From Coffea arabica (taxonomy: Eukaryota > Streptophyta > Magnoliopsida > Gentianales > Rubiaceae), in NCBI RefSeq assembly GCF_036785885.1, contig NC_092312.1, positions 10,558,001 to 10,622,000 on the forward strand: 64,000 nucleotides of DNA. Direction: 5' to 3'. The notes below the pieces were generated by a model. The model saw only the letters and a program-made list of their open reading frames with translations, had not been told where the DNA came from and did not search any database. This document shows, piece by piece, positions 6,134 to 55,071 of this stretch (position 1 is the stretch's first letter; every line of letters begins with the position of its first letter). The position numbers were made by a program, and so were the translations under genes.

Positions 6134-6199
6134 CACTTGGGATCCTCGATGACATGTTTTCTATGCCAATCCAATGCCATCAATAGTGTTGCGCCAAGT
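6134..6199 (+). mobile_element. Single-arm remnant of a MULE-type fold-back MITE
   Basis: These 66 bases match, with a few differences, the left arm of the complete fold-back element at 54568-54778, beginning CACTTGGGATCC and ending GCGCCAAGT. The opposite arm is absent here, so this is a truncated copy or a capture of one arm. Confidence 0.75.
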
Positions 6200-34028: not shown

Positions 34029-37000
34029 ATGGCAGCTGGTTCAGGGGAACAACTTGAAACAGTATTTGAATGCATGAAAAATGACCGTCTGAGGACAATT
34101 GTCCTCGTCGGGAAACCAGGCGTTGGAAAAACATGGATGGCAAGGAAATTAAGTGATCGTGCTATTAGGGAGGGACTGTTTGACCTTAATCTATGGCTGC
34201 CCCTTAACAGACATTATGACTCTATAACTCTTTGCAAGAGTATTGCTCATCAGTTATCTCTACTTCCTGTTTCTGACGAGTGGAAATTTGAAGAAAGTAG
34301 CGAGAACTTCAATGAGAATGATATTAACCATGAGCAAAAAAAAGAGTATCTAAGAGCAAAAACATTGGAAGCACTGGAACAGAAGAGGTTCCTTATAATC
34401 TTGGATGCTGAGGGAAGTCAAATGACCAGTCATGACATTTTGCGTGAATTGAAAAATCTGCAGCTCCTAGATGGAAAAGAGTCATATAAGTTCTTAATCA
34501 CTAGCACACAACACAGAGATGATCGTGGTCCTGAGGGGGAAACAAAAACAATAAATGTAGAGTGCTTGTCTGAGAATGAGTCACTAAACTTGTTGCAAAA
34601 GCTTGTTGACACTAAAGTTTATAAGCTTTCCCGCATTAAGGACTTGGCTAAATACTTCCTTGGGAAAAGACAAAGATTTCCATTTGAGGTGACCATCATG
34701 GCAAAAGTCCTAAATCATTTTGGGCAAAACGAGTCAGGAATTTGCCATTTGGAAAGCATTAAGGAGAATAATGTTGAAGGTTGCAATGTACTGCAGTTGC
34801 TGACCTATGGATACGAGTTGTTTCCAAGAAACATATTGATTGATTTCTGTTGGATTGGTAACCACTTCCTCCGTAAACGTGGAAGTTTCTACTTTGGTGA
34901 ATTGATTAGCTATTGGATACTAGAAGCATATCTTGACAACAACTGTTCCATTGAGGATGCTTACAAGAAGGGGCACACTATTTTGATGGAGCTCGTGGAT
35001 TGCGGGCTACTCAAACAGCTAGAGTCTGGTCATGTTGGCATGACCGAGGCAAAATATGATTTGGATGATTTTGATTACTGTAAATTTGTTCAAACAACTC
35101 AACTGGGATTGGCTTCTGTCTTTGATGGTGAACTTGGCAGAGTTGTGCAGGCAAAGGGAATGATAAAAACAAGTGGTGCTGGTGAGATTAGGAAGAAGAT
35201 ATCAACATTATTGCTTGACCTAGATTGTCTCGACAGTGAAGTCCCCAGTGATTTCTTTCATTGTGGAAAGGAACTTGAAGTTCTTGCTATCTTCAATCCT
35301 GGACTTCAACCATTCCCTCTGCCCTTATTTGAGATGGATAAACTCCATTTACTTGTGCTTCGAGGATGCAATTTGTTGGTGAGTATTGAACAATTCCTGA
35401 AATTTGAGAATCCAATTTGTTCTGAAAACTCTGCTCCTCTCTGTGTCTTTCAAAAATTAACTGTTCTTGAAATATCGGGTCCTAGTGCCTTGAAGCATAT
35501 TCCAGATAAACTTTTCAATCATACACCTCATCTTAGAAGCATCAACCTTTCGTTTCTTGAGATCGCCTCATTACCATTGTCTCTTTATGATCTGAAAGGA
35601 CTAGTTTGGCTCATCCTTAGAGGCTGTTCTGATTTGCAAGAAGTACGAAGCTTGAAAATGCTCGACAAACTTGAGGTGCTTGACCTTAGCGGTGCTAGAT
35701 CTCTGAAAACTATCCAAGACAAATGCCTTTACTCAAATCAGGAGCTCAGAATACTGAATCTTTCAGAGTCCCAGATTACTAGTTTACCATTGCTTAGAGA
35801 TCTTAAAAAGCTCACTCATCTCTTGCTGCGTGATTGTACCAATTTGGAAAGACTTCGTAAGATTACTGCACTTTCCAGTCTCCAAATTCTTGATCTTTCA
35901 GGTTCCACAAACTTTAAGGAATTCGTTGATCCATCCTTTGAAAAGCTTGCCAGCCTGAAAGTCCTTGATGTATCACAAACTGCAGTTGATAAATTACCCT
36001 TAGACATTGGCAGCTTGCACCAACTCTGTGTAAGAGATTGCCCTCAGCTAAAAGAACTGCCGCTTACAGAGTCCGTTAAGGGCCTACTAATACTTGATCT
36101 TTCAGGCTCCTGCTATCTGGAAGACATTCCAGAAAGTTTCTTCAGTCACCCAACAAGCATTGGAGTACTCAATCTCTCACAAACAAACATCAAAAGGCTA
36201 CCTGCCCTTTCTGACTTGCGTAACCTGCGTCACCTGTCACTTTCCCAGTGTATTTCTCTGGAGACATTGGGAGAGTTAAAGTCTACAACCAAATTGGAAA
36301 TTTTGGATCTTTCAGGGTGTAAAGCTTTAAAAGAAGTACAGGGTAGATCTCTTGAAAACATGCATCGCCTTCAAAAACTTGACCTGTCTGGAACAAACAT
36401 TACTTGTCTGCCATCTCTTTCATCAAACCTCCATCACCTCATACTGAAAGGTTGTTCCAACTTAAAAGAACTTCCGCCACTGAATCATCTATCAAGACTT
36501 GAAGAATTAAATCTCTCTGGAGTCAGTTCTACAAAAAAAGTCGCACCTGATCTAGAGCATATGGTCAATCTTCAGATCCTTGATCTATCTGACACCCAGT
36601 TGGAGAAGTTGTTCTCCTTGTTAAAGCTCAAAAACCTTAAATACCTTTCCCTCAGAGATTGTCCGTCTCTAAGTGAGGTACCAGGTCTAGAAGCACTTAC
36701 AAAACTTGAAGTTTTGGACCTTTCTGGAACAGGTATCAAGGATTTGCCATCCCTTGAGAATTTTGGCAATCTTCACAGGCTTCTCCTCAAAGGTTGTTTG
36801 AGCTTGGAAAAATTTAAGGATCTGAAGATGCACGAAGTTCTGAAGGCTACTATTGAAGAGCTTCCATATGAGATCTCAAAAGTGACTTGTCTTGAGCAGC
36901 TTGAACTGCCAATTTTCAGAGTTGGAGAGCTTGATTCTGAAAAGGACAAATTGCCATCAGAAGATCAGAGTCAGCTCCCATGGAGCATTTCCAATTGGCC

Positions 37001-38075
37001 GAAGGAACCAGCTTTTGATAATAAACTCATCATAACTGTGAATAGTATTGATTTTCTTCAATTCTTGAAGGATAATCCATCATTTTGGAACGCAAGTTTC
37101 ACTCAGTTCCATTTCTTTGTTCATCCTACTGAGGCATATGGTAGATATGGGGATAAGAATTTCTACAGAAATGAACTGTTACTCAGAGATCTCTACTTCA
37201 ACACAAGGCAACTTTCTGCTCCTATGGGGAGAGAACGGTCCTTGGAAATTCGCGGATTCATTTCTTTCCCCAAGTGTCTTGGCCTTATCCTAGCTCATGC
37301 TGAATGCATTATTTTGGTTGATGATCCATTTCTCACATGCTTATCTGACGTAGGCACTGACAATATTAAGAAGATGAATGCCTGTTGGATAGAGAGATGC
37401 AATGAAATGAAGGATCTTTTTCACACAGAAAAAGTCGAAGATGCAGCCAGATCAGGTGGAAGTACCAATACTGGGTTGCCGGAGCAAGATGTTGGAGATT
37501 TAAGAATCGGGGAGAATTTAGAAGTTCTCTGTGTTACTCATGCTGCTAGTTTGAGGAGCATTTGCAAAGGGGACATGCAAAGCAGTAGCCTAAGAAATCT
37601 GAAGTGTTTGTTGCTAGAACATTGTCCTCAAATTTCAGCTCTTGCTGCTTCACCCGAACAGCTAGGAAACCTTGAAACTCTTCAACTCAGATTCTGTGAC
37701 AAACTGGTGACATTATTTGAACAAGAGCTAGCTGCATTTCCAAAATTGCATACCTTAAAGCTATGGGCCCTCCCAGAATTTAAAAATGTTAGATGCGTCT
37801 TGCCAGCTCTACAAACTTTAGAGATTGGGGAGTGCCCCATGCTTATAAATGTCTTTTCTTCCCCTCACGTATTAGTTAACCTCCGGAACCTCCAAATCAA
37901 ATTTTGTGACGCAATGGAAACTGTCTTTGGATGCGGCAATTTGACACTTCCAAATTTGGAAATGTTGTGTCTGTGGAATTTACCAGAGCTGAGGAGTATT
38001 GGTGCTGACTGGCCATCATCAAGCAAGGAAGTTGTTCGTGAATGCCCAAAACTGTCTCTGCGAAAGAGGAATTAA
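34029..38075 (+). CDS. NB-LRR protein, At4g19050-like, diverged NB-ARC
   Basis: A predicted intracellular immune receptor-like protein of 1,348 residues in one long exon. It starts almost directly at the nucleotide-binding domain, with no TIR or RPW8 and no room for a coiled coil. The P-loop GKPGVGKT is intact (about residue 28). Kinase-2 is FLIILDAEG, with Ala in place of the second Asp (about 121), RNBS-B is KFLITSTQHR, and the GLPL site is replaced by RFPFEV. A winged-helix-like region spans about 257-347. Regular LRRs with LEVLDLSG and LQILDLSG cores run from about 414 to 960, and a second LRR block of the At4g27190 type from about 1157 to the end. Upstream, an acceptor at 34016 leaves open an added N-terminal exon; the ATG at 34029 is the first in frame after it. 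Confidence 0.88.
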   Translation: MAAGSGEQLETVFECMKNDRLRTIVLVGKPGVGKTWMARKLSDRAIREGLFDLNLWLPLNRHYDSITLCKSIAHQLSLLPVSDEWKFEESSENFNENDINHEQKKEYLRAKTLEALEQKRFLIILDAEGSQMTSHDILRELKNLQLLDGKESYKFLITSTQHRDDRGPEGETKTINVECLSENESLNLLQKLVDTKVYKLSRIKDLAKYFLGKRQRFPFEVTIMAKVLNHFGQNESGICHLESIKENNVEGCNVLQLLTYGYELFPRNILIDFCWIGNHFLRKRGSFYFGELISYWILEAYLDNNCSIEDAYKKGHTILMELVDCGLLKQLESGHVGMTEAKYDLDDFDYCKFVQTTQLGLASVFDGELGRVVQAKGMIKTSGAGEIRKKISTLLLDLDCLDSEVPSDFFHCGKELEVLAIFNPGLQPFPLPLFEMDKLHLLVLRGCNLLVSIEQFLKFENPICSENSAPLCVFQKLTVLEISGPSALKHIPDKLFNHTPHLRSINLSFLEIASLPLSLYDLKGLVWLILRGCSDLQEVRSLKMLDKLEVLDLSGARSLKTIQDKCLYSNQELRILNLSESQITSLPLLRDLKKLTHLLLRDCTNLERLRKITALSSLQILDLSGSTNFKEFVDPSFEKLASLKVLDVSQTAVDKLPLDIGSLHQLCVRDCPQLKELPLTESVKGLLILDLSGSCYLEDIPESFFSHPTSIGVLNLSQTNIKRLPALSDLRNLRHLSLSQCISLETLGELKSTTKLEILDLSGCKALKEVQGRSLENMHRLQKLDLSGTNITCLPSLSSNLHHLILKGCSNLKELPPLNHLSRLEELNLSGVSSTKKVAPDLEHMVNLQILDLSDTQLEKLFSLLKLKNLKYLSLRDCPSLSEVPGLEALTKLEVLDLSGTGIKDLPSLENFGNLHRLLLKGCLSLEKFKDLKMHEVLKATIEELPYEISKVTCLEQLELPIFRVGELDSEKDKLPSEDQSQLPWSISNWPKEPAFDNKLIITVNSIDFLQFLKDNPSFWNASFTQFHFFVHPTEAYGRYGDKNFYRNELLLRDLYFNTRQLSAPMGRERSLEIRGFISFPKCLGLILAHAECIILVDDPFLTCLSDVGTDNIKKMNACWIERCNEMKDLFHTEKVEDAARSGGSTNTGLPEQDVGDLRIGENLEVLCVTHAASLRSICKGDMQSSSLRNLKCLLLEHCPQISALAASPEQLGNLETLQLRFCDKLVTLFEQELAAFPKLHTLKLWALPEFKNVRCVLPALQTLEIGECPMLINVFSSPHVLVNLRNLQIKFCDAMETVFGCGNLTLPNLEMLCLWNLPELRSIGADWPSSSKEVVRECPKLSLRKRN

Positions 38076-39666
38076 TTTTCATAGGTCAAGTTCATATTGG
38101 AGTATGACATTGAAAGAAGAATAGTCGGGTGGAGGGAAGAAATATGATTCTTCGCGTGCGGATTGCTGAATAGATACAGCTTCAGGTTTGTCACCATTTG
38201 ATATTGTTTTAGTTTAAGTGCATATTTTCATGTCCACTCCGTAATATATGCACTGATAGAAAAGGGTTTACTGCTTCTTGGTGAAATTCTGCTGTAATTA
38301 TGGCCATTCTCAGGGTTGGCCTAACACCATGAATCAGGTGAATTTTCATGTGGACATTATCTGCCATGTCGTTTCAACATTAGTGTAACTATTTTAAGAT
38401 TGATTGTCTATACACAGGTTCCCAGATGGAGTGGCGCTTCAACAATTAGCCAGAATTGGAGTCATTAAAGAAAGATGGGCAATGGAATTTTGTGTATTTT
38501 TCTTTGACACAGGAAACATCATGCTGCTTTCTTGAATGGACACTCATGTTTATTTTGTTAATGATCTTGACGTTGCAGCTGTTGTACGTACGTGTGCAAT
38601 AAGAGGGAAGTTTCAGTATCTCAGTAATTGGGTTGTTGAAAGCATGAAAATTCGTTTTGGACGAGAGTACGGAGTTTACCATTTTTGCTCATGGTGAACA
38701 TGTACTGCTATTATCATCAATGAACAGTTGTATTTTGACTAGTTTCTAACCCACAAAGCAAGTTAACTACCTACAAAGGCTTTATTATGGTAAAGATACC
38801 AAAAAGAATCTAGAAAAATGTGCAGGGAAATTGCATATTCCAATACTTGGATAATTGTTTTCTCGGCTAGGTCTGGTAACCAATACTTTGCTCCATTGAA
38901 ATATCTAAGATTGAAAGGCACACCTGAAATTTTCATTTTGCTAATTGATGTACTAAAACGAACACAAGTTTCTCTGCTGCTCGCCAAGTTCTCATAGAAG
39001 GCCAGTGTACGTTGGCATAAGTCAGCAGGTTTCAAGATAAGATGCATAGAATTTCATTTTTCTCATACAATACTTTTAAGAGCCAGCTGCCATTAGCTAA
39101 TCTGGATGAACACAACCGATGTCTAGGTTTGAGCTAATTCCTCACAATTATCTGCAATTTTAACAATGAAAGGGATAAGATCATGATGTTGGCTTGGTAA
39201 TATGGATAAATTTATTATTTTGAATAGTAGAATAAAGAAAAAAGAGGAAACTTTTCCAACCAAAAGAATAAAAAGGAACCCAAGAATAATTGAGTAGTAG
39301 AGGTTTACGCAACTCTAAAAATTACACACTTTTTGTCTCGGGTCGCACTCACACCCACTGACCCAAGTCAAGTCTTCTCTTCACCCAGCACCAGCAGCAA
39401 GGTGAAAAAAAGAGCAAAGGAACGGATTATTCTTTGCTTTGGCAGTTGTTATTACGTGGGATCTTTCTTCTTTAACAAACATAATAATAAAATGTTGCAA
39501 TTTCATGCTCCTGTGCTATGATTTTTATTGGGTTCCAGCCTTCTAGGAATTTTTTTTTTTTTTTTTTTTTTTTTTTACATAGAATTGGAATATGTAGTTT
39601 TAACGGGGAATGATAGGATACTGCACCTCCAGTTTCTTCACAAACAAGTGAAACAACCAGCAAATT
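38076..39666. other. 3' flank and intergenic DNA
   Basis: Likely 3' untranslated sequence of the NB-LRR gene, possibly with spliced leader-like sites (acceptor-type CAG near 38.42 kb). It ends with a poly-T run (39549-39576) about 90 bases before the next start codon. No gene was seen. Confidence 0.45.
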
Positions 39667-42351
39667 ATGTCCAGCGCCTCAGAAATTCCACAAGACCAAG
39701 CGGAGGAGGAGAATGTCTCAAAACCTCAGAACCAAGAAACCCTCCCCACCACCACGCCGGATATTACCCAACAAGAAGCCGCCCAGGTGGCCGCGGCCGA
39801 GTCGGCAAATCCTCCCACTCCAGTCAACGACACTGCAAAGGCAGCAAATGCTGGGGACCAGCTAAAGGTGTCCAGCAGCTCAGAAATCGCAGCAGAAGAG
39901 AATGCAACCGACACTGCGCAGGCAGCAACTGCTCAAAGCCAGCAAAAGATGTCCAGCAGCCCAGAAATACCAGAAGAGGAAGCAATAGCCAATTCCCCTA
40001 ATCCGCCCGAGTCCACATCGAGCAACCAGAATCAAGAAAAACCGTCCAATGTCCAAGAAATTTCTCCGGGTGCAGGCGTAGCCGCTTCAACTGGTCATCC
40101 CAAACTCGACTGTTCAGCCCAGCCCACGGAAACCCAGAGTCAAGAAACTGGTTTTTCCAGTGTCCCAGAAAATACACCAGAGGAAGCCGGAGCCAAAAAT
40201 GCCGACGCCACCACTCCTCCTAAACTCGATAATACTCCTGCTCAGTCCACCACCGGTGAAATAACCCGTGATCTAAAGAAAACTGATGAAAATGAAGCTC
40301 CAAAGAAAGATTTAACCACCAAAGGCAACACTAGTCCTCCTGTAACTGAAACCCCAAAACAAGATTCAACCAATGCTTCCCCAAAACCAGATTCCTTTCC
40401 GACAGGCGTCCGTTCGAAAAAAGACTCAATCTGCCTCCCTTTTCTAGGCTTCCACAAATCCAAGGAGAAAAAACCACAATCCAAGAAGAAGCCAGTCCAA
40501 GACAGCACTGCCACTACTTCTTCTGGCAAAGATGAGCTTCGCAAGTTGATTGATGCAGATATTAAGTACATAGAGAAGGAGATAATCAAGCTCGACGAGT
40601 ACAAGGCCCAAGTATTTTCGCAGGTAAATGAGGCAAAGCAGAGGTTTGACAATCTCAGCAGCAATGATCAAGGTACCGAAAGAGAATTTGCCGATCTCAG
40701 GAAGGAAGTGACCAAGTTGAAGCTTCAGATACCATCAAAACACAAAGCTGATGCAGAAGAGAAAGATTCACACAAAAGTCAGCAGGCCGGTAAGTCCTCA
40801 AGAAACATACCCGACGCCGTGAAGGAAAAAATGCCTCAGTTATATAAGAGCAGCTCGATTGAAAATTGTGTTGAGGTGAGAGAATTTAAGGCTCTTTTTA
40901 ACGGGCTTGCTCTGGAAGAGAAGATCTGTTTGCTCTGTTTTGCTGTGTTCCCTGAAAAAGCTATTATCAAGAAGAGGCTGATGGTCCACTGGTGGATAGC
41001 AGAAGGTTTCATGCCACCAAGACAACAAGATGCCAATCGGAAAACTGCTGAGGAGTTTGCTGATGAGTACTTTGAGAAGCTAACAAGATTGGGATTCATT
41101 GAGCCAGTGAATAAAAAGCGTAGCCTCTATGTGGGATGTTACAAAATGCAACCTTTTGTTAGGCTTGCACTGATCACGATGGCTGAAAAAGCTAAGTTCT
41201 TTAAATTTGACAAGGAGGGTAATCCAACTGAGGATTTTTCTGGCACATTGCAGGCGTGCTTGATGGGCAGAGGTCTGTTGGACTATCAAGATTTACAGAA
41301 CGAGCGCGCAAATCCAGATTTGGAGAAACTTCATGCTGTGTTCAATGTCAATGAGGCGATCCTTGACTTTAAGCCCGAATGGTTTTCAATGATGAAGAAT
41401 CTGAATTTTCTTCATCTAGGAAGTTGGAAAGTGTCACCCACTGATCACATTGAGGTTGACGAGTCCCATTTCTTGAATGGATTGAGCAGTATGGAGCATT
41501 TGAAGTTCTTTAGTCTTCAAGGAGTTTCGAGAATAATGGAGCTTCCTGAATCCATTTCAAATTTGTCAAATTTGATAATCCTGGACCTGAGAGCCTGTCA
41601 CAGCCTTGAGTCAATTCATGAAGGTATCCGCTATATGAAGAATTTAACATACCTGGATATCTCCGAGTGCTATTTGCTAGAGCGTATGCCCAAAGGTATT
41701 TCTATGCTCTCAAATCTACGCGTGCTGAAGGGGTTTGTCGTAAAATCAGAGCAGGGCCAGGGCAAGGGCAAGGGCAAAAACACTTGCACTCTTAAAGACC
41801 TGGCACAATTGAAAAAGCTGATCAAATTAAGCATTTATACTGGCCTTGTTGAATTTCCCACTCGTAAGCATCTTGAAGATTTGCAGAAGATAGAAGCTCT
41901 TAAGAAGCTTACCATGGCATGGGGTGGGACTCCACTGCATACTGAAGATACTAGCAAGACTGAAGACTCTATACAACTGACGAACCTGGAAAAACTGGAC
42001 CTTAAGTCTTTCCCCAAGACTGCCACCCCCGGTTGGCTGGAGCCTTCCAGTTTGAAGTCACTAAAGAAACTATACGTTCGAGGTGGGAAGTTCTCTGATT
42101 TGGGGCAATACCAGTATCTTGATCAGAAAGGACCAAATGAACCAGCTAAAAACAAATGGAACGTAGAAATACTGCGACTCAAGTATCTAAGTGAAATAAA
42201 AGTGGATTGGAGAGAGCTGCAAGACTTATTTCCAAATTTGATTTATTTGGAGAAAGTCAACTGCCCCAAGCTTTCTTTCTTCCCATCTGATGGATATGGA
42301 GTTTGGATCAACGAGGAGAAGTTAAAGCAGAAGCAAGTGAGGTCACAATGA
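39667..42351 (+). CDS. LRR half of a split NLR: disordered N-terminus, coiled coil, winged helix, LRR, no NB-ARC
   Basis: A single-exon protein of 894 residues. Residues 1-265 are low-complexity (Ser, Thr, Pro, Glu, Ala, Gln) with an internal repeat (MSSASEIPQ, VSSSSEIAA, MSSSPEIPE). A basic stretch (KSKEKKPQSKKKP) precedes a coiled coil at about 290-355. Residues about 385-520 match the winged-helix part of CNL receptors (ICLLCFAVFPEKAIIKKRLMV, HWWIAEGF, AEEFADEYFEKLTRLGFIEP). LRRs follow from about 565 to 875 (ELPESISNLSNLIILDLRAC and others). No P-loop, kinase-2 or GLPL motif is present. The nearest relatives I recall are Arabidopsis At5g45510/At5g45520 and the LRR part of RPP13-like proteins. 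It faces the CC-NB-ARC gene at 45.1-46.4 kb, which has just the missing part. Confidence 0.9.
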   Translation: MSSASEIPQDQAEEENVSKPQNQETLPTTTPDITQQEAAQVAAAESANPPTPVNDTAKAANAGDQLKVSSSSEIAAEENATDTAQAATAQSQQKMSSSPEIPEEEAIANSPNPPESTSSNQNQEKPSNVQEISPGAGVAASTGHPKLDCSAQPTETQSQETGFSSVPENTPEEAGAKNADATTPPKLDNTPAQSTTGEITRDLKKTDENEAPKKDLTTKGNTSPPVTETPKQDSTNASPKPDSFPTGVRSKKDSICLPFLGFHKSKEKKPQSKKKPVQDSTATTSSGKDELRKLIDADIKYIEKEIIKLDEYKAQVFSQVNEAKQRFDNLSSNDQGTEREFADLRKEVTKLKLQIPSKHKADAEEKDSHKSQQAGKSSRNIPDAVKEKMPQLYKSSSIENCVEVREFKALFNGLALEEKICLLCFAVFPEKAIIKKRLMVHWWIAEGFMPPRQQDANRKTAEEFADEYFEKLTRLGFIEPVNKKRSLYVGCYKMQPFVRLALITMAEKAKFFKFDKEGNPTEDFSGTLQACLMGRGLLDYQDLQNERANPDLEKLHAVFNVNEAILDFKPEWFSMMKNLNFLHLGSWKVSPTDHIEVDESHFLNGLSSMEHLKFFSLQGVSRIMELPESISNLSNLIILDLRACHSLESIHEGIRYMKNLTYLDISECYLLERMPKGISMLSNLRVLKGFVVKSEQGQGKGKGKNTCTLKDLAQLKKLIKLSIYTGLVEFPTRKHLEDLQKIEALKKLTMAWGGTPLHTEDTSKTEDSIQLTNLEKLDLKSFPKTATPGWLEPSSLKSLKKLYVRGGKFSDLGQYQYLDQKGPNEPAKNKWNVEILRLKYLSEIKVDWRELQDLFPNLIYLEKVNCPKLSFFPSDGYGVWINEEKLKQKQVRSQ

Positions 42352-42910
42352 ATTTGTCAAACATTCCTCGAATAATCTTGGAATGCTGGGTGTATGGTGG
42401 TTGCCTCTGATCAAAATTTCACCATGATATTGGGGTTGTCTTTTTTTTGGACTTGCTAGTAAACTTTTTTTCTTGTTTTTTTTAATTGCCTTCTATGTTT
42501 ACCAATGTGTTAATGAATATCTTTTATTGTCTTTTTCTTCTATGTTGAAGTAATTGGTATGGTTGTGTTTTTTGTTGAATGTCTTGTCAAATTTGTTGGA
42601 CACGATGAATTGTAGGTAATCATATCAGAAATATGTATGATTATTGCAGCTAGCCAATTGAGCATTTCTTGAATTTCTTTTATTTATTGTGCATTACATC
42701 CCAGCATTGCAAAGTTTTCTTCTGCATTGTAAATCAAGAATGGACGAACTGTACATAGGTGCAAGGTCAATCTTGACATTCCTCAGATAGTAGTAATTCA
42801 AGGGGCAAGCTATAAAGATGTTGGCACGGCTAAGAATAGTCCGCTGGTTCTTTTTTTTTTTTTTTGCTCTGTCTTTAAGTCTCAATTGAAAAATGCTTAG
42901 TGGTCCAGAA
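42352..42910. other. 3' flank of the LRR-half gene
   Basis: T-rich 3' untranslated-type sequence; no coding signal before the duplicated gene end that follows. Confidence 0.5.
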
Positions 42911-43092
42911 TGAACTGGAGGTGCATTGGAGAGTGCAGGATTTATTCTCCTGTTTGATTTGCTTGGAGAAATTCAATTATTCCAAGCTCGACTTCCTCCC
43001 TTTTCATGGATATGGAGTTAGGATCTACATGGAAATACAACTGCAGAAGAAATGATATCATGATGAATTTGTCAAACATTTCTCAGATAATA
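42911..43092 (+). pseudogene. 3'-end remnant of a second LRR-half gene
   Basis: This stretch aligns along its length with the last coding bases and early 3' untranslated region of the neighbouring LRR-half gene (about 42200-42375). Shared landmarks are GTGCATTGGAGAG/GTGGATTGGAGAG, CTTGGAGAAA, CCAAGCT, TGGATATGGAGTT, CAGAAG and GATGAATTTGTCAAACATT. It has small insertions and deletions, no long open frame and no upstream gene body, so it is the tail of a tandem duplicate whose 5' part is gone. The conserved 3' untranslated part shows it came from genomic duplication, not from a distant paralogue. Confidence 0.8.
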
Positions 43093-45104
43093 TACTTCGA
43101 CCTTGCATGCCAAACCGGGCTGCTGGTGATTAGAATTGAACCTTAGTTGGAAGATCAATATTCTGCAAGTGAGTTAACATTTTGGACTATTTAACAATGT
43201 GAATCTGCACGTTTTTCCGAATGCATTTCTCCTTAGATTTATCAACATGATATGTGGCTTGTTGGATTCTTTTATTCTTTTTATTCGATAACATGAAATA
43301 AGAATGGATGATCTGCAAGCATGTTTGGCCGACTGTGGCTCATCCTTTCATTTCTTCAGTCTCAGATGTCCTTGTTAGCCGTTTATCCAGACTATATGTC
43401 TCATGTGGCCACATGTTTTGATGCCAAATACTTTGCTTGCCAATGGAATTCAATAAGATTAGCTTTTCATACTTCTAATGTAAGTTAAATAGATTCTGCT
43501 GTCATTTCCCCAAGGGCGAGGAGAGCCTCCTTTTTCTTCTTCTTCAGATGGGGCCAAGATCATTCCTGTGGAATTTACCTCGCACAATAGAATACCGTGC
43601 ATGGCCTTTTTATGGCGGCCTTATCTTATGAACCCAGTATTATGATAGAGATCATGTTTTCTTGAGAAGAAGATAAATACCATGAATTTTCAATCCCCTA
43701 ACAAAGAAAGCCTGTAAATGATTTCCAGCATTCTAGTTATTCCACAGAATTTCTCCACCAAATACATCATGATTATTACTTTTCTGTTAATTCCACAAAA
43801 AGAAGCCAGTACGCAAATGCATCTATAAGCTTCAACCTCTTATTTTATTTGTCCCTGTCATTTATGTCCGCCCTGAATCAGTTGAAAGCAGGTCCTGAAC
43901 AGACGTCCAGATAATAGAAGAGCTAAATGCAGGATTGCAGACTAGGTGTGAAAGTGTGGTCTAAGTGTCTTCTATGTAATCGTAATGTGCATTTGAGTCA
44001 GTGAAACTGGTAAAATCCTAGTATCTTACAGCATTGATTTGCCGTTCTCTCTTAAAATCAACTGTATCACTATCAATACACACCCCTAAGAAGTTTGCTA
44101 GAAAAGGCTGAGCAGGAATATGCCGCATTCAAGGATAACTTGCGATTGAGCAGGGATCTTAACTCATGATGCATGTTTTCTTTTCCTTTTCTTTATTCCC
44201 TACACTTTGTTTCACATCTTAATATCCCTTTTTTATTTTCCCATTGGATCAAGATTCAAAACTTGTAATAGCAGGAGAATAAGAAGCAAAAAGTTGTCGT
44301 TTATGCTCTGGCATTCACAAAGCGGTCCTGTGAAAGCACATGACGAGTAAAGAAAGCTCAAATTGAAGTAATGAATCCGAAATATTTCGTTTAGAAAGTT
44401 GCCTACGACTCAAAAGGTAGAAGAGATTGAATGAGTTTGTTCTTATTCAAAGTAAAAAAGATTTTTTGTTTGTCCTGGAATGGATGTTGATTACCAGACC
44501 ATATTTTGGCCCCAGCAGTTATTTCAGATGAAATGCTTTATGTTAACGGGCTGGATAGTGAAGTTATGGTCCCATGATTGAAGTAATTATACATTGCAAT
44601 GGCAGAAAATATCTGTAACATTTTATAAAGATGCTATCCTAGATCATAGATGATAGATCTTGAATTTGATGGTAGATATTCAAGAACGCAACCTTGTCCA
44701 GAATGAGATAGAAATAAACAAAATATCAAGGAACTTTTAGTTGCCCAAAAAATAATAATAATAAAGGCAGTTTGAAGACCGGGTCTACCCAAGTTTTGGC
44801 CTTCCTCATGACTTGTGCTGTTGGTAAGTGGAGCTTTCATCTTTTGCAGCTTTTATTTATTCTCAGGTTCTAAGCTAATTATATCCTTGATTTTTTCCAA
44901 ATTAGAAAATATTCAGTAAAATCCCAGCATGAAACTGCCATAAGTTTAGGTAAAAGTAACAAAAATATGATTTCTAACCCCTTATTTCATGGAGGGCTAT
45001 CATAGAAATAACAAAATCCAATAATTTAAGAGAGCCGGAACCACAAATACCATAAATCACACAAAAGTTATAAGCTTGCTACATAGTTGTTTTTTGTTTT
45101 CTGG
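43093..45104. other. Intergenic between convergent split-NLR genes
   Basis: About 2 kb between the 3' ends of the LRR-half gene (+) and the NB-half gene (-). No additional gene body or domain was seen; the part nearest 45.1 kb is the presumed 3' untranslated region of the NB-half gene. Confidence 0.5.
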
Positions 45105-46376
45105 TTAGACTGTAGACTGTTGTGATTGCTGCTGGTTTTGGCTCTCTGCTGGATTAGTTTGTGTGTTGGGTTGTTTGGGAAGTTGCTGATGCAGAATTTC
45201 GCCCATCATTTTAGCAGCCAGTGGCAGACCAGCACATTTGTCAACAATTGTGTCTTTTAGGGGCATAAGATTTTCTGGGAACTTTTTCCCATCTTTCTCA
45301 ACTGAGTCTTTGAATATTTTCCAGCAGATTTCGTCGTCCTTGAGGATTGGAAGCCGATGCAAGTTCTCTTCACCAACCATCTTCTTGGCAATTTCTTCGG
45401 ACCTGGTTGTGATAATGACTGTCCCACCATGCCTTTTTGGGAGCCCATATGCAAGTTGTCCATAGCATTTATCATCCTCTGTTGACTCAGAAGCCAAGTC
45501 CCCAAAGCACTCGTCCCAGTTCCTAACATCGTCCGGCTTCCTAACATCATCCAGCACAATTAGGTACTTCTTCCCCATCAATTGTAAGCGAAGAGCAAAC
45601 ATCAGTTTCTGAAGACCAAGATTTTGATCTTTACCGGCTTCTTGGATGATCTCACCATCCACTCCCAAGCACATCAGCATCCTCTTAACATTCTCCTTGC
45701 TGTTGTCCTCGTCATCCTCGGGCTGCTTTGACAGACACACCCAAATCCTGGGGAGGAAATGATCCTTCACCTTCTTATTGTTGAAGATTAGCTGACACAG
45801 GGTCGTTTTCCCGACCCCGGTCATTCCAACTATTGCAAATGCCTTGAACCCATTTTTGCTCTCTTTCCTGAGAAGCAGCCTCTCCAAGAATCTCTCTTTG
45901 TCCTCGAATCCATGGACTTTGCTTGGATCCACCGTTCGCGAGCTCCACCGATAAGTATCCAAATTCCCAGTTAAGCTCACGTCTGCAGCATCCTGTGTAG
46001 TAGCAGTAGTAGCAGCAGCAGCAGCAGTACTAGACCCTTCTCCTTTTCCACTGCCTTCCCCACCTTCTAATTTCTTACTAATCTCCTTGAGTCTCTTGTC
46101 AAGTTTATAAGCGAAAGCTAGTGCCTCAGGACTGTATATACTCTGGCCTTTGGAAATCAGCTGCCACTGGGTCAGTAGATTGTTGAGAAGGTAAAGATTT
46201 TCCCTGTATTCTTCAGGTTTGATAGCCGTTGACTTGTCTTTAAGCAAGTTCTTCAATTTTTCGAAGTCTCCATGCAGACCAAACAGGACTGTCGACAGAC
46301 AATGCTCTGTGGACTTTGTTTCTTCGATTGCTAATTCCAGTTTGTTAAACAGGTACTCTTCTATTAGCCCGGCCAT
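45105..46376 (-). CDS. CC-NB-ARC protein without winged helix or LRR, At5g45490-like
   Basis: A single-exon protein of 423 residues. Residues 1-115 form an Rx-N-like coiled-coil region starting MAGLIEEYLFNKLELAIEET. A Gly/Ser/Ala/Thr-rich linker follows (about 103-130, partly from a GCA/GTA repeat). The NB-ARC has a good P-loop (GMTGVGKTT, about 183), RNBS-A-like RIWVCLS, kinase-2 KKYLIVLDDV with both Asp residues (about 272), RNBS-B GGTVIITTRSEEIAKK (about 323) and GLPL as CAGLPLAAKMMGEIL (about 385). About 25 residues later, in a Gln/Asn-rich tail, the protein ends, so winged helix, MHD and LRR are absent. The natural-looking tail and stop argue against simple truncation. Arabidopsis At5g45440, At5g45490 and At4g19060 have this same short build, from memory. 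A nucleotide switch role is inferred. Confidence 0.92.
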   Translation of the reverse strand: MAGLIEEYLFNKLELAIEETKSTEHCLSTVLFGLHGDFEKLKNLLKDKSTAIKPEEYRENLYLLNNLLTQWQLISKGQSIYSPEALAFAYKLDKRLKEISKKLEGGEGSGKGEGSSTAAAAATTATTQDAADVSLTGNLDTYRWSSRTVDPSKVHGFEDKERFLERLLLRKESKNGFKAFAIVGMTGVGKTTLCQLIFNNKKVKDHFLPRIWVCLSKQPEDDEDNSKENVKRMLMCLGVDGEIIQEAGKDQNLGLQKLMFALRLQLMGKKYLIVLDDVRKPDDVRNWDECFGDLASESTEDDKCYGQLAYGLPKRHGGTVIITTRSEEIAKKMVGEENLHRLPILKDDEICWKIFKDSVEKDGKKFPENLMPLKDTIVDKCAGLPLAAKMMGEILHQQLPKQPNTQTNPAESQNQQQSQQSTV

Positions 46377-47852
46377 CTGAACAACCCCAACACGGCCTCT
46401 AGTTTTGCACTCTCCCGGCAGAATGTGAACAACTGGGTGGATCTTTCAGCCTTATAAGAAAATCTGAGGACAAAAACTTTGAGATGCTGAAAACGGGTAG
46501 CTTTTTAAGAATGGGATGATAATATGACCATCCGGAAAAGCATCCAGCTTGATACTTTGAGTAAGTTCGTGGGTGACTCAAGTGTTCATACTTTACCAGG
46601 TGAGCTCATCTTTCAGCAAATAATTGGCAACTTCAGGGTTTTTGATTTTTCAGGCTTTTGCTGACGTCCTGGGCCTCAAGATGCATGACATCACTTAACA
46701 TGCTTTTTAAGTATTAGTAGTTTTTAGAAGGCATCTTGGTTCAACAATTTGAAAAGCGAAATAGTAGTTCAAAATATTTGCCACATGAATTTTCTCCTCA
46801 TCTACTTTTAAAATATTAATTTTATGTCCATTCATAAATTTAAATTAATAAAATTGAATTCCAATCTAATTTTTTTATCACTTTTAACCCGAAATCACCA
46901 CCTGACCTACAAAAATGATTACAAAAATAATCCAACCATGTAGTTATTATTTATGTAAAAAAAAAAAGAGTCAAATCTCACATTTTTAGTGACAAAAATA
47001 AATATGAAGCAAAACTTCCAACTCGAACTCAGATTCTACACCTTTAGGAGCAAAAATGAATATGGTACTTGTCAATTATCAATTATAAAAGGGATTTATC
47101 TTTTTATCTCTAAAAAAAATGATCATATGTGAACTACATGATGGATTTCGGATAAAAAGTTGTCAAAAACCAAGATTGGAACTAAATTTTATTGATTTAA
47201 TTTTGTAAGAAATATAAATTTAATATTTTAAAAATAAATGACAAAAAAGTTAATTTGATAAAATATGAATAACATTTTGAATGATTTTTCCCATTTGAAA
47301 ACCACCAGGGCCTGCGTCAAAATGTCGGCCAAGGTTGAATCCTCTGGGGAAAAAAAAGTAAAAATAATTCGCCACTGCTTTGTGTAGGGCCCATTATCCT
47401 GTTACATAATAATGCAAGAAGCTTTCCATTAATGCATGAATAAATGACCAATATTGACCTATTTTTCAGTTCTTTAGATTTACTTGTAAGTCATAATCGT
47501 CGTGAATGGATGGACGAAGCAGATGAAAGTGAAAAGATGAAGAATTCGCCTGATAAAGATGATTTAAACGACTAGTAGAAGTAAAGAATCCCGTCTCTCT
47601 CTTTTTTTTTTTTTTTTTTTTTTTTTTGTGGTCTTTTTCAGGCTCACTCTTCACTGTCTTTCCCCCCCTTTCTTTGTTTCCTCGCTGTGTTCTTTAAAGA
47701 CAATAATGAATTGATTCAGTCGGACTCACAATTATCTTAACTCCCTTAATATTGCTTTATCTGCTCTCTGGCATGATTCATACGAACTGAAACAGTCCAT
47801 TTCTTCCTGACCAGGGTAAAGAAGAAGAAGAAGAAAGAACGCAAAGTGTACT
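46377..47852. promoter_or_regulatory. Shared upstream region of NB-half and DUF4220 genes
   Basis: The NB-half gene (-) and the membrane protein gene (+) are transcribed away from each other across this 1.48-kb stretch, so both promoters must lie in it. Its middle is occupied by an AT-rich fold-back sequence (about 46768-47290). A poly-T run (47607-47627) and a GAA-rich leader precede the membrane protein start codon. Confidence 0.5.
46768..47290. mobile_element. Probable fold-back MITE
   Basis: The left part (from about 46770: TTCAAAATATT..., TTTTAAAATATTAATTTTAT, AATTAATAAAATTGAATTCC) recurs inverted in the right part, ending near ATTTTGAATGATTTTTCCC. The inverted arms are of the order of 130-150 bases around a non-repeated core. 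Identity is moderate and no target duplication was established, so limits and family are provisional. Confidence 0.6.
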
Positions 47853-50416
47853 ATGGAGCTCCCAAACTTTGATTATTGGAAGCAGCTGTGGGATAAATGG
47901 GAACTTCGGGCATTTATCGTTATAAGCCTCTCCCTTCAGACCTTCTTGATTCTATTTGCCCCTCTGAGGAAGCGGGCATCAACAGGTTTCTTAATAATGG
48001 CAGTATGGTCAGCCTACTTGCTGGCAGATTCTGCAGCTATTTTTGCAGTAGGACTCATCTCCAACAGTCAAGGCAACTCAAGACCTCATAAGGATCGCGA
48101 TGACGATGCAGATCTATTAGCATTTTGGGCTCCCTTTCTTCTCGTGCATCTTGGTGGCCCTGATACCATCACAGCTTTTGCACTGGAGGATAATGAGCTC
48201 TGGCTTAGGCACTTGCTTGGACTCGTATTCCAGTCCGCAGCAGCCTTTTATATCTTCTTCAAGTCACTTGAAAACATGCTATGGATCCCAACCGTCCTCA
48301 TGTTCGTTGCAGGCATCATCAAGTATTCTGAGCGAACGCGTTCGTTGTATCTTGCAAGCTTGGGTAGATTCAAAGACTCCATGCTTACAGAACCTGACCC
48401 GGGTCCTGACTATGCTAAGCTCATGGATGAATACTATTCAAAGAAAGAAGCAAAACTTCCAACTCGAATTCAGATGATTGGGGAATCTGGTAGAGGAAAC
48501 AAAGCTTCAAGAGTGAAGGAAGGACCGTTGACAGACCTGGATGTGGTTCTCTATGCTCATCAATTCTTCCGAACCTTCAGAGGCCTATTTGTGGACCTCA
48601 TATTCAGCTTTCGCGAGCGTAATCAAAGCCGGGATTTCTTCCTCAAGAGAACAGCGGACGATGCTTTCAGAGTATTAGAGGTCGAACTCAATTTCTACTA
48701 TGACGTCTTCTTCACAAAGGTGAGTGTGATGTACACTAACCTGGGATGTATTGGCCGGTTTGTTTCTGTTGTCTGCACTGTTGTTGCTCTTGGTCTGTTC
48801 TACTCAGAAAGAAAGAAGAGAAAATTCAATGGCTTCGACGTTGGAATTACCTACACCTTGCTTTATGGTGCGATTGCCTTGGATGTCATAGCTATCATTA
48901 TGCTCATTTTCTCTGATTCGGCCGTGGTTAAAAAGAATGAATTTCGACGTCGACTAGCATTTAAGAAGCAGAATGGAACTACTCAAGCAGCTTCCCAACA
49001 AAGTGCTGCTGCTGGCGGAGCATCAACACGATCTCCCTTTCGAAATTTTTTTAGGCGGCTTTGGCATGTCTTCAGCAGGAGGTGGTCAGAAACTGTTTCG
49101 ACTTACAACTTAATAAGCTACTGCCTTCATCCTCGCCTAGAAGTGAAGGAAAAGTTCATTGGATATATTGGACTGGCCAACATTTTGAACCAAATGAAAT
49201 ATGTTAAGACGGTGCCCTTTTCCACGGAATTAAGGGATCTCATCTTCAGAGAGCTTAAGAAAAAATCAGATATGGCTGACGATTTAGATACTGCTAAGGA
49301 CATAAGTTCAGCCAGAGGTGACTGGATTCTACGACTAGAAGGTTTTGGTGAGTTGCTGCCTTACATTTCCCAAATGGACTACGATCAAAGCCTTCTCTTG
49401 TGGCATATTGCCACTGAACTCTGTTACAGTGATGAAGCAAAAGGTAAAGTCAGGGATAATCTATACTTACACTATATATGAAAGTGCGATAGATGATTTA
49501 CGAGCAAGTGTTTCTTACTTTTTTTATTTGCCTATTTTACTCATGAGTTTACAACTTAGAAGTTTAAAATGTTGGACAGAGATGTCATGATACTGTCGAG
49601 ATGAACAAATTCTGTTTTGTTTGTTTGACAGCCTCGAGTCCTAACAAGGACCGCGATTTCTCCAAGCTCCTTTCAGATTATATGCTATACCTTCTTGTCA
49701 TGCAGCCTACAATGATGTCTGCAGTTACAGGAATCGGGCAAATAAGATTTCGCGATACATGTGCAGAAGTTAAAAAGTTTCGAGGAAAATTAAAAAAAAA
49801 GAAAGAAGAGCCTAATGTCATTCAAGTCATCTGTTACGTGATTCATAGCCTCTTCAAATACTTTTTCCTCTGTTTATATTGGTTCATCCTGTGTTTAGTC
49901 TTCATTATCACCTCTCCCTTGTTGATTATCCTGGAGATTAGCAAGTCCCTCTTCGGATGGGAAGCGCTAGATGTGATTCTGGGCAATGCCAACAAGTGTC
50001 ATCAATCCATTTTGGCAATCTTTGGCAAAGGGGAATTGGCAAAGACGGAAGACGATCATGCAAAAGTATGTAAAGAAATTCTTGACGTGAAAACTGAAGT
50101 TAAACCAGTTGCTATCAAAGGAGACAGGAGCAAGTCAGTTCTGTTCGATGGTTGCATTTTGGCCAAAAAGCTTAGGGGCTTGAAAACATCAGATGAGGGA
50201 ATAGAAGTAGATAAATGGGAGATAATGAGCAAAGTGTGGGTGGAACTGCTATCCTATGCTGCCATTCATTGCAGAGCAAGCGCTCATGCACAACAACTTA
50301 GCAAAGGGGGAGAGCTCATCACTTTTGTGTGGCTGTTGATGGCTCACTTTGGCTTGGGAGATCAATTTCAGATAAGTGAAGGACATGCCAGGGCTAAACT
50401 GATTGTGGGGAAGTAG
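47853..50416 (+). CDS. DUF4220/DUF594 multi-pass membrane protein
   Basis: A predicted membrane protein of 791 residues, of unknown biochemical function. Exons 47853-49443 and 49632-50416 join in phase 1 ([22 protein letters not shown]). Hydrophobic segments lie at about residues 20-38, 45-68, 118-133, 141-156, 300-318, 335-355 and 604-632. The DUF4220 region carries the family's [33 protein letters not shown] block. The C-terminal DUF594 block is [43 protein letters not shown] (about 727-783). Full length for the family. In Arabidopsis, DUF594 genes (At5g45460-80, At5g45530-40 from memory) sit among NB-only and LRR-only genes, as here. It is head-to-head with the NB-half gene. Confidence 0.93.
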
Positions 50417-51605
50417 CTCAAATGCTCAATATGCACTCTACTCTCCACTCTCTAGTCTGTCCAGTTAATACTACTTTGTTTTGATTTGCACGTTCGTTAT
50501 CTGTTGTACTGCCTTTTTTTTTTTTTTTTTTTTTTGAAGTTGCTGCAATAAGTTTTAAGTTTGCTAAATCTTTCCTCAAAGAAGAAATGCATAAGTTGTT
50601 CTTGAACTTTGCTCTTACAAATTTCGTTTAGCACCTGATCAATGAATAGAAATTCGAGTCTCAAATCCTAAGCTCGACCATGGCAGAAGAACAAAGGGAA
50701 AATTGACAATCTTTTACCTACAAAATCTTGCTGCCATTCATTGCAATCAGATGGTGAATATCTTAACTACAAGCCCGAGGTTTATTATGGAGAACCAAAG
50801 ACTATCCCTGGGCTATGTTCAACCAATCCAGGAGCCCAAAAAATGAGATGGATCCCTCTGTCAATGATAAGGCTTTTCCGTAATATTATTCTATAATATG
50901 GGATGGGCAGCATGCTCAATTATAATGGAAAAAGGCCTTCTCTTTCACACTTGAGCGACTCATTTTTTTAGCGCGTGGATGATTTGCGTTCAGATGTTGG
51001 CCCTTCCGGACCGTCCGGATACAGTTACTTAAATCTTTGTTCGCGGCTGCTATTTTTGGCTTTTTCTTCTTTAACTATATATTTTTGGTGCTTCTCAAAG
51101 TACATTAATAAGTAGTATGTAATGGTGGCCTTTGACTTGCTCTTATGACTGAAAAGGAAAAAAATTCTCACTCAGCAGTGAAAACCAATTTCACGTGCCT
51201 CTTCTTTCATCTTTTCCTACTGTCTTTCTTGCTTCTTCCTTTTATTTTTGAGACGAAATTCTACGTATTGCCTCTATCTTTCTTTTTTTCCGGAGAACAT
51301 TCTCTCTTGCTTCCTTTTCATATTTGTTAGGGATTTTTTTTTTTGGGTAATTGAATATGCATCAATATAAGAGAGAGAGAGAGAGAATGCATCAATCTAA
51401 TAGTTAGGTGTAAGCAAGTCGAACTCAATCAAATAATTCACAAGTTTGTTCAATCAAAATTTGAGCTTGAAATCAAGCACTTCAATTCTAGTATGTAAAA
51501 TTTGAAAGTTGATTGAACTTAATCAAACTCAATCAAGCTTCACATATATATGCCTTTTTTTATTTCTTAGTATAAAAGGTTTATTTTGTTCCTTGTTTAA
51601 CATTA
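50417..51605. other. DUF4220 3' flank and old repeat DNA
   Basis: A T run (about 50513-50536) follows the stop codon. From about 51.41 kb the sequence is full of short CAAGTCGAACTCAATCAA-type phrases, also seen (mostly inverted) beyond the transposon at 55.09-55.26 kb; this may be an older element split by the Pack-MULE insertion. Confidence 0.4.
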
Positions 51606-51614
51606 TATAAAATA
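51606..51614. repeat. Left 9-bp target site duplication of the Pack-MULE
   Basis: TATAAAATA, repeated exactly at 55063-55071. Confidence 0.85.
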
Positions 51615-51806
51615 GAATAAATTGTGCGAAATGCCACTAAACTGTTGCGAGACGCCGGTTTTGATCACAAATTTTTTTATTTATAAAAATGTCATTAAAC
51701 TAGTAAATCTGTATCGTATTAATTATTTTGTATATTTATGCCGTTAGGAGAGACGAAAAATCATTTTTTTGAGAGGCAATTTCGTCTAAACAGCTGTTAA
51801 AAAATT

Positions 51807-51966
51807 TATACCCTCGTTCTTTTTCACCCACAACCACCCATCACCTACATTGCCACCCACCGCCGTCATTTCCACCTCCACCTCCACCTCCACTCTCCTT
51901 CCTCTCCCTTTTTTCTTTCTTCTTCCTCCTCCTCCCTCTTCCTTCCCTCCCCTCCTATCTCTTCCC
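51807..51966. repeat. Left inner inverted repeat of the Pack-MULE
   Basis: Begins TATACCCTCGTTCTTTTTCA and runs on as CCACC/CTTCC-rich sequence; its inverse is at about 54175-54325 (GGGTGAAGAAGAATGAGGGT at that end). It is continuous with the outer repeat on the left, but on the right a 560-bp stretch separates the two, so something was inserted or acquired there. Confidence 0.75.
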
Positions 51967-54174: not shown

Positions 54175-54325
54175 TGGTTGAGGAAGAGAGAGGAGGGGGG
54201 AAGGAAGAGGGAGGAGGAGGAAGAAGAAAGAAAAAGGGAGAGGAAGGAGAGTGGAGATGGAGGTGATGGCGGTGGGTGGCAATGTAGGTGATGGGTGGTT
54301 GTGGGTGAAGAAGAATGAGGGTATA
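54175..54325. repeat. Right inner inverted repeat of the Pack-MULE
   Basis: Inverse of 51807-51966, GGA/GGTGG-rich, ending GAATGAGGGTATA. Confidence 0.75.
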
Positions 54326-54558
54326 CTAAGAACACTGGTACATGGGAACTGGGATGCATGAACCTCTCACGGCGGCGGTTTGAATGAGGGGGAAGACGAC
54401 TTCAAAAATGTTGAAACCCATTTCTTTTCTGTAGTTAGCATTTAGCAAAGCTGTAGTATTAGTGCTCTTCTTTCTTTCTTGGAGGCTTCTGATTCCTTTG
54501 ACCGGTGAAATGGCAATGGTATTGGTGGGTGCAGCGGCGTCCCGCTGTGGGGTGGGGT
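54326..54558. other. Unidentified segment inside the Pack-MULE right arm
   Basis: With 54788-54881 this makes about 330 bp that have no counterpart in the left arm. Base composition is more gene-like than the flanks (CGGCGGCGG, GACCGGTGAAATGG), so it could be a second captured host fragment. I recognise no protein in either strand. Confidence 0.45.
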
Positions 54559-54567
54559 CTGAATTTC

Positions 54568-54778
54568 CACTTGGGATCCTCGGTGACATATTTTCTATGC
54601 CAACTCAATGCCACCAATAATGTTGCGTCAAGTGTCATGTTATTATTTACACTTTAATTTTTTAATAATTCAACTTGACTTGATTTAACACAAGTGTAAA
54701 TAATAACATGACACTTGGCGCAACACTATTGGTGGCATTGGATTGACATAGAAAACATGTCACCGAGGATCCCAAGTG
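54568..54778. mobile_element. Fold-back MULE-type MITE, 211 bp
   Basis: Almost the whole element is an inverted repeat: the left arm begins CACTTGGGATCCTCGGTGAC and the right arm ends GTCACCGAGGATCCCAAGTG, around an AT-rich centre (TTTAATTTTTTAATAATTC). A perfect 9-bp duplication CTGAATTTC (54559-54567 and 54779-54787) points to a Mutator transposase. A single-arm relative is at 6134-6199. Confidence 0.93.
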
Positions 54779-55062
54779 CTGAATTTCAGGTAAAACCTTG
54801 ACTTTCTCTTTGGCCTTTTGAACTTTCAACTGCTATAATAACATGAGAATCAATTTACATGCTGGAGAGCTCAGGGAAAAGGCTGTACTGACGAAATTGC
54901 CCTTCAAAAAATCAATTTCCGCCTCTGCTAACGGCATTAGTACACGGAGTGATCAAAATGGTACAGATTTATTAGTTCAATGATATTTTTGGCTAATAAA
55001 AAAGTTTAGTGATCAGAACCGACACCTCGCAATAGTTTAGTGACAATTCGCGTAATTTGCTC

Positions 55063-55071
55063 TATAAAATA
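55063..55071. repeat. Right 9-bp target site duplication of the Pack-MULE
   Basis: TATAAAATA, identical to 51606-51614. Confidence 0.85.

Follow-up and report, generated by a model that had tools for sequence, protein, structure and literature searches.

The four-gene cluster

We analysed a 64,000-nucleotide stretch of Coffea arabica DNA (the window; C3:10558001-10622000 of a 1.198-Gb assembly in 131 contigs, the labels C1, C2 and so on denoting contigs of this coffee genome). Four genes with open frames lie together in 16.4 kb of it: a gene with both a nucleotide-binding (NB) domain and leucine-rich repeats (LRRs) that resembles At4g19050 (the NB-LRR), a gene for the LRR half of such a receptor, a gene for an NB half, and a gene for a DUF4220/DUF594 membrane protein (Table 1). 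Read from sequence, the last three appear to constitute a deep, linked module in which a nucleotide-binding leucine-rich repeat receptor (NLR) of the coiled-coil (CC) class, or CNL, is split between two genes. The LRR half and the NB half are separate genes on opposite strands with 2.75 kb between them, and their domains do not lie on one chain. All counts given for the coffee genome are lower bounds.

An earlier note, made from the letters of the window, had described four intact genes there, and all four are in place with open frames. Its account of a DUF4220/DUF594 membrane protein also holds: both domains belong to one two-exon gene, whose 188-bp GT-AG intron (donor 49444, acceptor end 49631) joins the frame into a product of 791 residues, in which a simple hydropathy scan finds six hydrophobic segments. 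The NB half lacks LRRs, as claimed; its frame stops 37 residues past the GLPL motif and includes neither a winged-helix domain (WHD) nor repeats. The description of the LRR half as free of NB-ARC sequence is correct in part: the P-loop and NB-ARC1 are missing, but the WHD is present, and this domain belongs to the NB-ARC module.

Table 1. Features of the cluster, in window coordinates
Feature	Position	Strand	Remarks
NB-ARC + LRR gene (At4g19050-like NB-LRR)	34029..38075	+	single open frame; neighbour of the module
LRR half	39667..42351	+	894 aa, single open frame; N-terminus of ~400 aa, WHD, LRRs
Decayed tandem remnant of the LRR-half 3' end	42909..43091	+	tblastn 53% over LRR-half residues 842-890
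NB half	45105..46376	-	423 aa, single open frame; CC-like N-terminus, P-loop, Walker B, GLPL
Divergent (head-to-head) spacer, NB half / DUF4220 gene	46377..47852		1,476 bp; inverted repeat inside
Membrane-protein gene exon 1, DUF4220	47853..49443	+	PF13968 2.6e-108
Membrane-protein gene exon 2, C-terminal DUF594	49632..50416	+	PF04578 1.3e-25

Two complementary halves

The NB half has a Pfam NB-ARC domain at residues 163–398 (1.5e-33) with the P-loop, Walker B and GLPL motifs, and its best phmmer match in the PDB is ZAR1 (6j5t), with residues 140–395 lying on ZAR1 146–369 (2.8e-25), followed by NRC1 (3.1e-12). The LRR half has a winged-helix domain (Pfam WH_DRP, residues 427–495, 3.4e-11), and its best PDB match is again ZAR1, with residues 409–878 on ZAR1 406–838 (5.5e-33), followed by MLA13 (3.1e-14). 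By these alignments the halves are complementary: they cover abutting stretches of ZAR1, with the cut between ARC1 and the winged-helix domain, and the LRR half therefore holds the last subdomain of the NB-ARC module. An RWSS..V.G stretch ahead of the NB domain is common to the window NB half, ZAR1 and an unsplit ZAR1-like coffee gene on C13.

The N-termini are less easily assigned. Global alignment of the NB-half N-terminus with nine CC domains, judged against shuffled sequences, gives a weak likeness (z 0.5–5.8), highest for the coffee ZAR1-like gene (5.8), a CNL on C1 (5.1) and Arabidopsis ZAR1 (4.7), none of which was equalled in 1000 shuffles; NRC3 and NRC4 show no significant likeness to it. 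The same test yields z from −0.7 to 2.6 for an NB half on C5 and from −0.7 to 4.2 for one on C2, and searches of the N-terminus against the PDB and Pfam return no CC match. The likeness is visible in the shuffle tests only. Residues 1–400 of the LRR half are low-complexity or helical, the first 260 being rich in A, S, T, P and E, and a cysteine (Cys 256) precedes a lysine-rich stretch (264–275), which might possibly make contact with a membrane. The N-terminus of the C5/C6 copies is shorter and different from that in the window, and comparison of the window stretch with that of the C6 copy finds no likeness (z 0.28). When LRR-half N-termini were tested for a CC origin, z ranged from −1.5 to 2.7 and no CC derivation was apparent.

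The split is constant among the copies in the coffee genome. All eight intact NB halves stop 21–86 residues after GLPL, before any WHD, and all eight keep the P-loop and Walker B; GLPL is present in six, with GLPF and GHPL in one each. The P-loop and NB-ARC1 are absent from all five intact LRR halves. At the MHD position, aspartate is replaced by proline in each of the ten LRR-half copies inspected (five intact, five broken or partial), which read MQP in the window and on C4 and VHP in the eight copies on C2, C5 and C6; the unsplit C13 gene has IHD. A change of this aspartate to valine in some ZAR1 orthologues gives autoactive cell death (PMC10533319).

Recurrent linkage in the coffee genome

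The best 99 of 1212 candidates from the NB-half search comprise 11 NB-half loci, 5 rows from a mobile element and 83 other NB-ARC matches. An NB half was defined by a score above 110 bits, with C5:41929 (93.8 bits) added by hand and the five mobile-element rows left out. Searches with DUF4220 and DUF594 returned at least 28 and at least 22 matches, and the LRR half at least 53, or at least 80 with the C6 paralogue as query.

For all 11 NB-half loci a DUF4220/DUF594 locus is found within 20 kb, and for 8 of them within 10 kb; of the 83 other NB-ARC matches, one has such a neighbour within 20 kb. With C5:41929 moved to the latter group, the comparison becomes 10 of 10 versus 2 of 84. Seen from the other side, each of the nine loci with an unbroken DUF4220, among them the C4 locus with its broken DUF594 exon, has an NB half no further than 10.02 kb away, and two damaged DUF4220/DUF594 loci have one within 20 kb. 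The ten remaining loci are broken or partial; the nearest NB half is 355 kb or more away, or there is none on the contig. Six broken DUF4220 copies, at C5:40.27-40.88 and C4:31.496 Mb, share the same tally of stops (two TGA and one TAA in the first part); they are probably copies of one another, hence few independent events. A seventh broken copy lies at C5:39.97 Mb, and all seven are far from any NB half.

LRR halves, among the matches listed, occur only on C3/C4 and at C5:41.26-41.90, C6:45.57-45.88 and C2:5.963-5.965 Mb, where the 13 loci counted lie 5.4–167 kb from an NB half. The earlier note's proposal of an old linked set is supported for three families: the NB half, the LRR half and DUF4220/DUF594 recur together on C3/C4, C5/C6 and C2. 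Because tandem and homoeologous copying has multiplied the loci, the independent evidence for linkage amounts to the deep pair of the window and C5/C6 plus the later copy on C2. Viral and genome contig collections searched with the NB half, and viral contigs searched with the DUF4220 exon, contained no relatives.

The arrangement of the linked genes varies. The NB half and the DUF4220 gene are head-to-head in the window and on C4; judged by match strands, the other seven pairs in which the NB half is intact and the DUF4220 match unbroken (one on C2, three on C5, three on C6) include six convergent and one tandem. A conserved shared promoter was considered and rejected, since only the window and C4 pairs among the nine are head-to-head. 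The spacer in the window contains an inverted repeat (46798-46896 / 47144-47241), which encloses a 29-bp near copy (47006-47034) of DUF4220 coding sequence at 48447-48475.

Relationship to ZAR1

Separate unrooted trees were built for the two halves. The NB tree omits the C4 NB half, which has a stop, and two short frames, C5:41591 (278 aa) and C5:41929 (191 aa); the LRR tree omits the broken copies. In its own tree each half forms a single clade (96/93 for NB, 100/99 for LRR) apart from a clade of ZAR1 with the C9/C10 ZAR1-like genes and from seven other CNLs. Neither half falls inside the ZAR1 clade. Approximately unbiased (AU) tests reject a grouping with ZAR1 alone or C9/C10 alone, both for the LRR halves (p 0.0023 and 0.0018) and for the NB halves (p 0.012 and 0.014), and splitting up the LRR halves is rejected as well (p 0.005). 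An origin of the halves from the C9/C10 ZAR1-like genes is not favoured (AU p 0.0018 and 0.0136). Because the trees are unrooted, the halves can be called sisters of ZAR1 only if the other CNLs serve as outgroup. The LRR half shows a clear preference for ZAR1-like genes in the coffee genome (146.8 bits on C10 and 135.7 on C13; other CNLs at most 65). For two families so complementary and congruent, we regard the fission of one ZAR1-related CNL as the simplest reading and, on the sequences, a likely one.

Age and copying of the module

The contigs C3/C4, C5/C6 and C9/C10 look like homoeologous pairs. Between the window and C5/C6, silent sites are saturated, with a synonymous divergence (dS) of 2.3 for the NB half and values that are not computable for the LRR half and the DUF gene. 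The C2 trio is younger: against C5/C6, dS is 0.446–0.509 for the NB half (6 comparisons), 0.432–0.464 for the LRR half (3 comparisons; the C2 copy is broken) and 0.434–0.449 for DUF4220 (4 copies), with 0.350 for C6:45539. The three families thus give similar dates, as would be expected from joint copying of the trio. Between homoeologs, the ratio of nonsynonymous to synonymous divergence (dN/dS) is 0.33 for residues 401–894 of the LRR half (WHD-LRR) and 1.18 for residues 1–400, which evolve fast; it is 0.50 for the NB half (0.46 for the NB domain), 0.46 for the DUF4220 exon and 0.52 for the NB-LRR. All of these values come from few changes.

A mobile element has taken up part of the NB half. 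It is ~1.3 kb long, has inverted ends (GGGTCCGTTTGG..) with TTA at the borders of three copies, and carries ~555–570 bp of the NB-half gene (window 45583-46150) at 88–93% DNA identity; it is found at no fewer than four places (C16:40257449, C7:46728139, C3:12505671, C21:44133442). We take it to be PIF/Harbinger-like from its general features, and it is a possible source of small RNAs against the NB-half gene.

Neighbouring genes and flanks

The NB-LRR at the left end of the cluster has a Pfam NB-ARC match (1.2e-15) and matches to many LRR models. The earlier note had counted it with the module, which the coffee genome does not support. Among the best 34 of 1688 candidates, its strong relatives besides the C4 copy (32–47% identical) are on C15, C16, C20 and C9, none of them near an NB half or a DUF4220 locus, and weak matches (E ~1e-7) on C5/C6, at 39.15 and 44.09 Mb, lie outside the clusters. 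As a candidate for membership of the trio it is set aside, and we treat it as a neighbour. The B. rapa genes Bra013372 and Bra013373, corresponding to At4g19050 and At4g19060, have consecutive numbers (PMC4008172), which suggests that a link between the NB-LRR and the NB half may be old.

The LRR-half remnant at 42909-43091 is 75% identical in DNA to 42202-42376 and is present on C4 too. To the left of the cluster lie unrelated genes for a B-box protein, a universal stress protein (USP), a GCD14-type tRNA methyltransferase and a MYB protein. The best further MYB paralogues are at C9:45.81-45.97 and C10:41.11-41.26 Mb; next to them, at C9:45.756 and C10:41.056, are the second-best USP paralogues (71%), a closer copy (74%) being at C9:52.1/C10:47.2. 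The unsplit ZAR1-like genes at C9:45.54 and C10:40.86 lie ~0.2 Mb from these paired USP and MYB paralogues, and by this resemblance the region C9:45.54-45.97 / C10:40.86-41.26 may be an old duplicate of the window region. To the right, eight short frames have no Pfam match; inverted pairs of repeated DNA (77–89%) stand at 51603-51965 and 54182-55074, and an 85% inverted repeat at 54559-54789 has partial copies at 6119-6202. All of these repeats are probably small transposons.

Relatives and known systems

NB-only genes (At5g45440, At5g45490, At4g19060) and LRR genes (At5g45510, At5g45520) of Arabidopsis are of the same kinds as the halves in the window. According to the earlier note, Arabidopsis DUF594 genes lie between them. 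Its account of these loci finds partial agreement in papers, which bear on the gene types of At5g45490, At5g45510 and At4g19060 and on proximity in Brassica; the comparison is one of published descriptions. At5g45490 is classed as ‘CN’ and At5g45510 as ‘divergent NL’, and both are among 15 genes significantly induced by salicylic acid (SA) at 4 h (PMC2175511). By our own arithmetic, two given genes would both fall among 15 of 162 with a chance of ~0.008 if independent, which neighbours are not. Homologues of both in B. oleracea have near gene numbers (PMC7795555). At4g19060 is called ‘NB only’, and chimeric read-through pairs are reported for AT5G45472-AT5G45490 and AT4G19070-AT4G19060 (PMC8116057); At4g19060, At5g45440 and At5g45490 move between Groups C and A (PMC6312357). 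As leads only, a DUF594 gene is duplicated at the rice Pi54 locus (PMC6281543), and DUF594 is in the top 20 Pfam domains of one chromosome table for rice 11 and 12 (PMC1261165). Passages of PMC7264425, PMC8196641, PMC5664099, PMC6039772, PMC12573847 and PMC9657016 have no decisive bearing on the matter. In the titles, abstract openings and passages that the literature searches brought up, mostly from outside subscription journals, the Arabidopsis families are nowhere described as complementary halves of one CNL.

Among known receptors, ZAR1 (At3g50950; 6j5t) and the C13 gene have the same NB, ARC1, WHD and LRR parts that are spread over both window genes, and a CC domain that the N-terminus of the NB half weakly resembles. 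They differ in that the window has two genes for one, proline for the MHD aspartate, and halves that fall outside the clade of ZAR1 and C9/C10. Engineered halves of Rx reportedly work in trans, with a cut at another place than the window split; they too are CNL halves expressed apart, but as a laboratory construct and not as a lasting genomic split. RPS4 and RRS1 are paired NLRs. They and the TN10 type, in which a truncated NLR pairs with a full one (PMC8069298), resemble the cluster in being linked NLR genes, the TN10 type also in its truncation, but each such pair includes at least one full NLR, whereas both window halves are incomplete.

A proposed model of a split receptor and its alternatives

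We propose that a ZAR1-related CC-NB-ARC-LRR receptor was split at the ARC1/WHD hinge and gave rise to two lasting gene families. The CC-NB-ARC1 protein would be the nucleotide switch and possibly the executor, and the WHD-LRR protein, whose MHD motif is altered, the lid and sensor. The halves would have stayed linked, the NB half more tightly to the multi-pass DUF4220/DUF594 protein. The WHD-LRR protein would dock in trans on CC-NB-ARC1 and control its nucleotide state, a task that the WHD and LRR perform in cis in ZAR1; the DUF4220 protein would be a membrane partner or a guarded target, and recognition would free or assemble the CC-NB part. The sequences show the anatomy and complementarity of the halves, the constant split point, the common MHD change, the recurring linkage and the similar separation dates of the C2 and C5/C6 trios; that fission happened once, that docking occurs in trans and controls the nucleotide state, that the membrane protein has a role and that the output is immunity, we infer. 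The complete chain, from fission through lasting linked families and docking in trans to a DUF4220 partner or guarded target, strikes us as somewhat less probable than an even chance. The halves may well act in trans, which we hold tentatively and at about the same confidence, and a membrane step with the DUF4220 protein as partner is doubtful. A bolder form, about which we are just as sceptical, is a natural two-gene resistosome: a ZAR1-related CNL split before its two main lineages diverged and dependent on assembly in trans, with CC-NB-ARC1 held at the membrane by the DUF4220/DUF594 protein of the adjacent gene and released or capped by WHD-LRR, and with an Asp-to-Pro switch that would be safe only if divided.

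Several points weigh against this proposal. Contact between the products is a prediction, and genes may stay neighbours through common descent even if they do not work together. On C5, C6 and C2 the LRR halves lie 16–167 kb from an NB half, and the MHD motif, by which the switch is closed in cis, reads MQP or VHP instead. The window NB half is a long branch whose placement apart from the other NB halves is not rejected (AU p 0.060, 0.077), and the NB-half scores in the coffee genome show no real preference (C13 ZAR1-like 96.8 bits, C9:3712 96.3, C1:2021 94.9); the case for its ZAR1 origin is therefore made by its order of PDB matches, by the RWSS stretch and by the similar picture in the LRR half. 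Within C5/C6, the NB halves C5:41769/C6:45713 have a dS of 0.128 and their DUF neighbours 0.017, with no pair-by-pair match, so the loci are no simple block copies or have undergone gene conversion or reshuffling. On C4 the LRR half is intact, but codon 71 of the NB half is a stop, the NB-LRR is interrupted by a stop at 160 and by a frame break near 1142-1157 (numbered from 34017), and in the DUF594 exon the frame is broken and stops near residue 56-64 of the exon-2 product; this may be joint decay of the module or mere redundancy. Finally, a passage of the study with Groups C and A names three Group C CC fragments that respond, and At4g19060, At5g45440 and At5g45490 are not among them (PMC6312357).

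The two families might instead be separate truncated NLRs, each an adaptor, decoy or dampener that acts with or against full-length NLRs but does not act with the other half; the NB-LRR could be the partner of the NB half. Such pairing is published for TN10 (PMC8069298), intact copies of the halves differ in number and spacing, and homologues of At4g19050 and At4g19060 are consecutive in B. rapa (PMC4008172). Against it, one and the same hinge separates the two families, ZAR1 heads the PDB matches of each, both occur in the same regions only (among the matches listed), and the relatives of the NB-LRR lie elsewhere in the genome; we consider this account unlikely, if a serious one. We give a similarly low standing to linkage by descent only, in which one ancestral neighbourhood was multiplied by chromosome and segmental copying and persisted because no rearrangement broke it up, and the functions are unrelated. 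It draws on the fact that C5/C6 and C3/C4 are apparent homoeologs and C2 a later copy (dS ~0.45), which leaves few independent events, and that flanking MYB and USP paralogues also stay together (C9:45.76-45.97, C10:41.06-41.26 Mb). Yet silent sites are saturated and the NB half remains within 20 kb of DUF4220 in all loci while orientation and spacing have changed, and the 10 DUF4220/DUF594 loci away from an NB half, several of them probably mutual copies, are broken or partial. That the genes are decaying NLR fragments devoid of function is very improbable: the C4 lesions in three of four genes and the several broken LRR halves on C5/C6/C2 fit decay, but eight NB halves and five LRR halves are intact with conserved motifs and one split point, homoeolog dN/dS is 0.33 for WHD-LRR and 0.46 for the NB domain, and the Arabidopsis relatives are induced by SA (PMC2175511).

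Implications

The split suggests why NLR finders can overlook genes of this type; NLRtracker missed At4g19060 and At5g45440 (PMC11752215). Plant NLRs are generally regarded as single-chain proteins; a lasting and duplicated split at one hinge would show that the nucleotide switch is divisible between proteins, and the split pair would be a natural system for assembly in trans. The DUF4220/DUF594 membrane proteins would thereby gain a testable partner.

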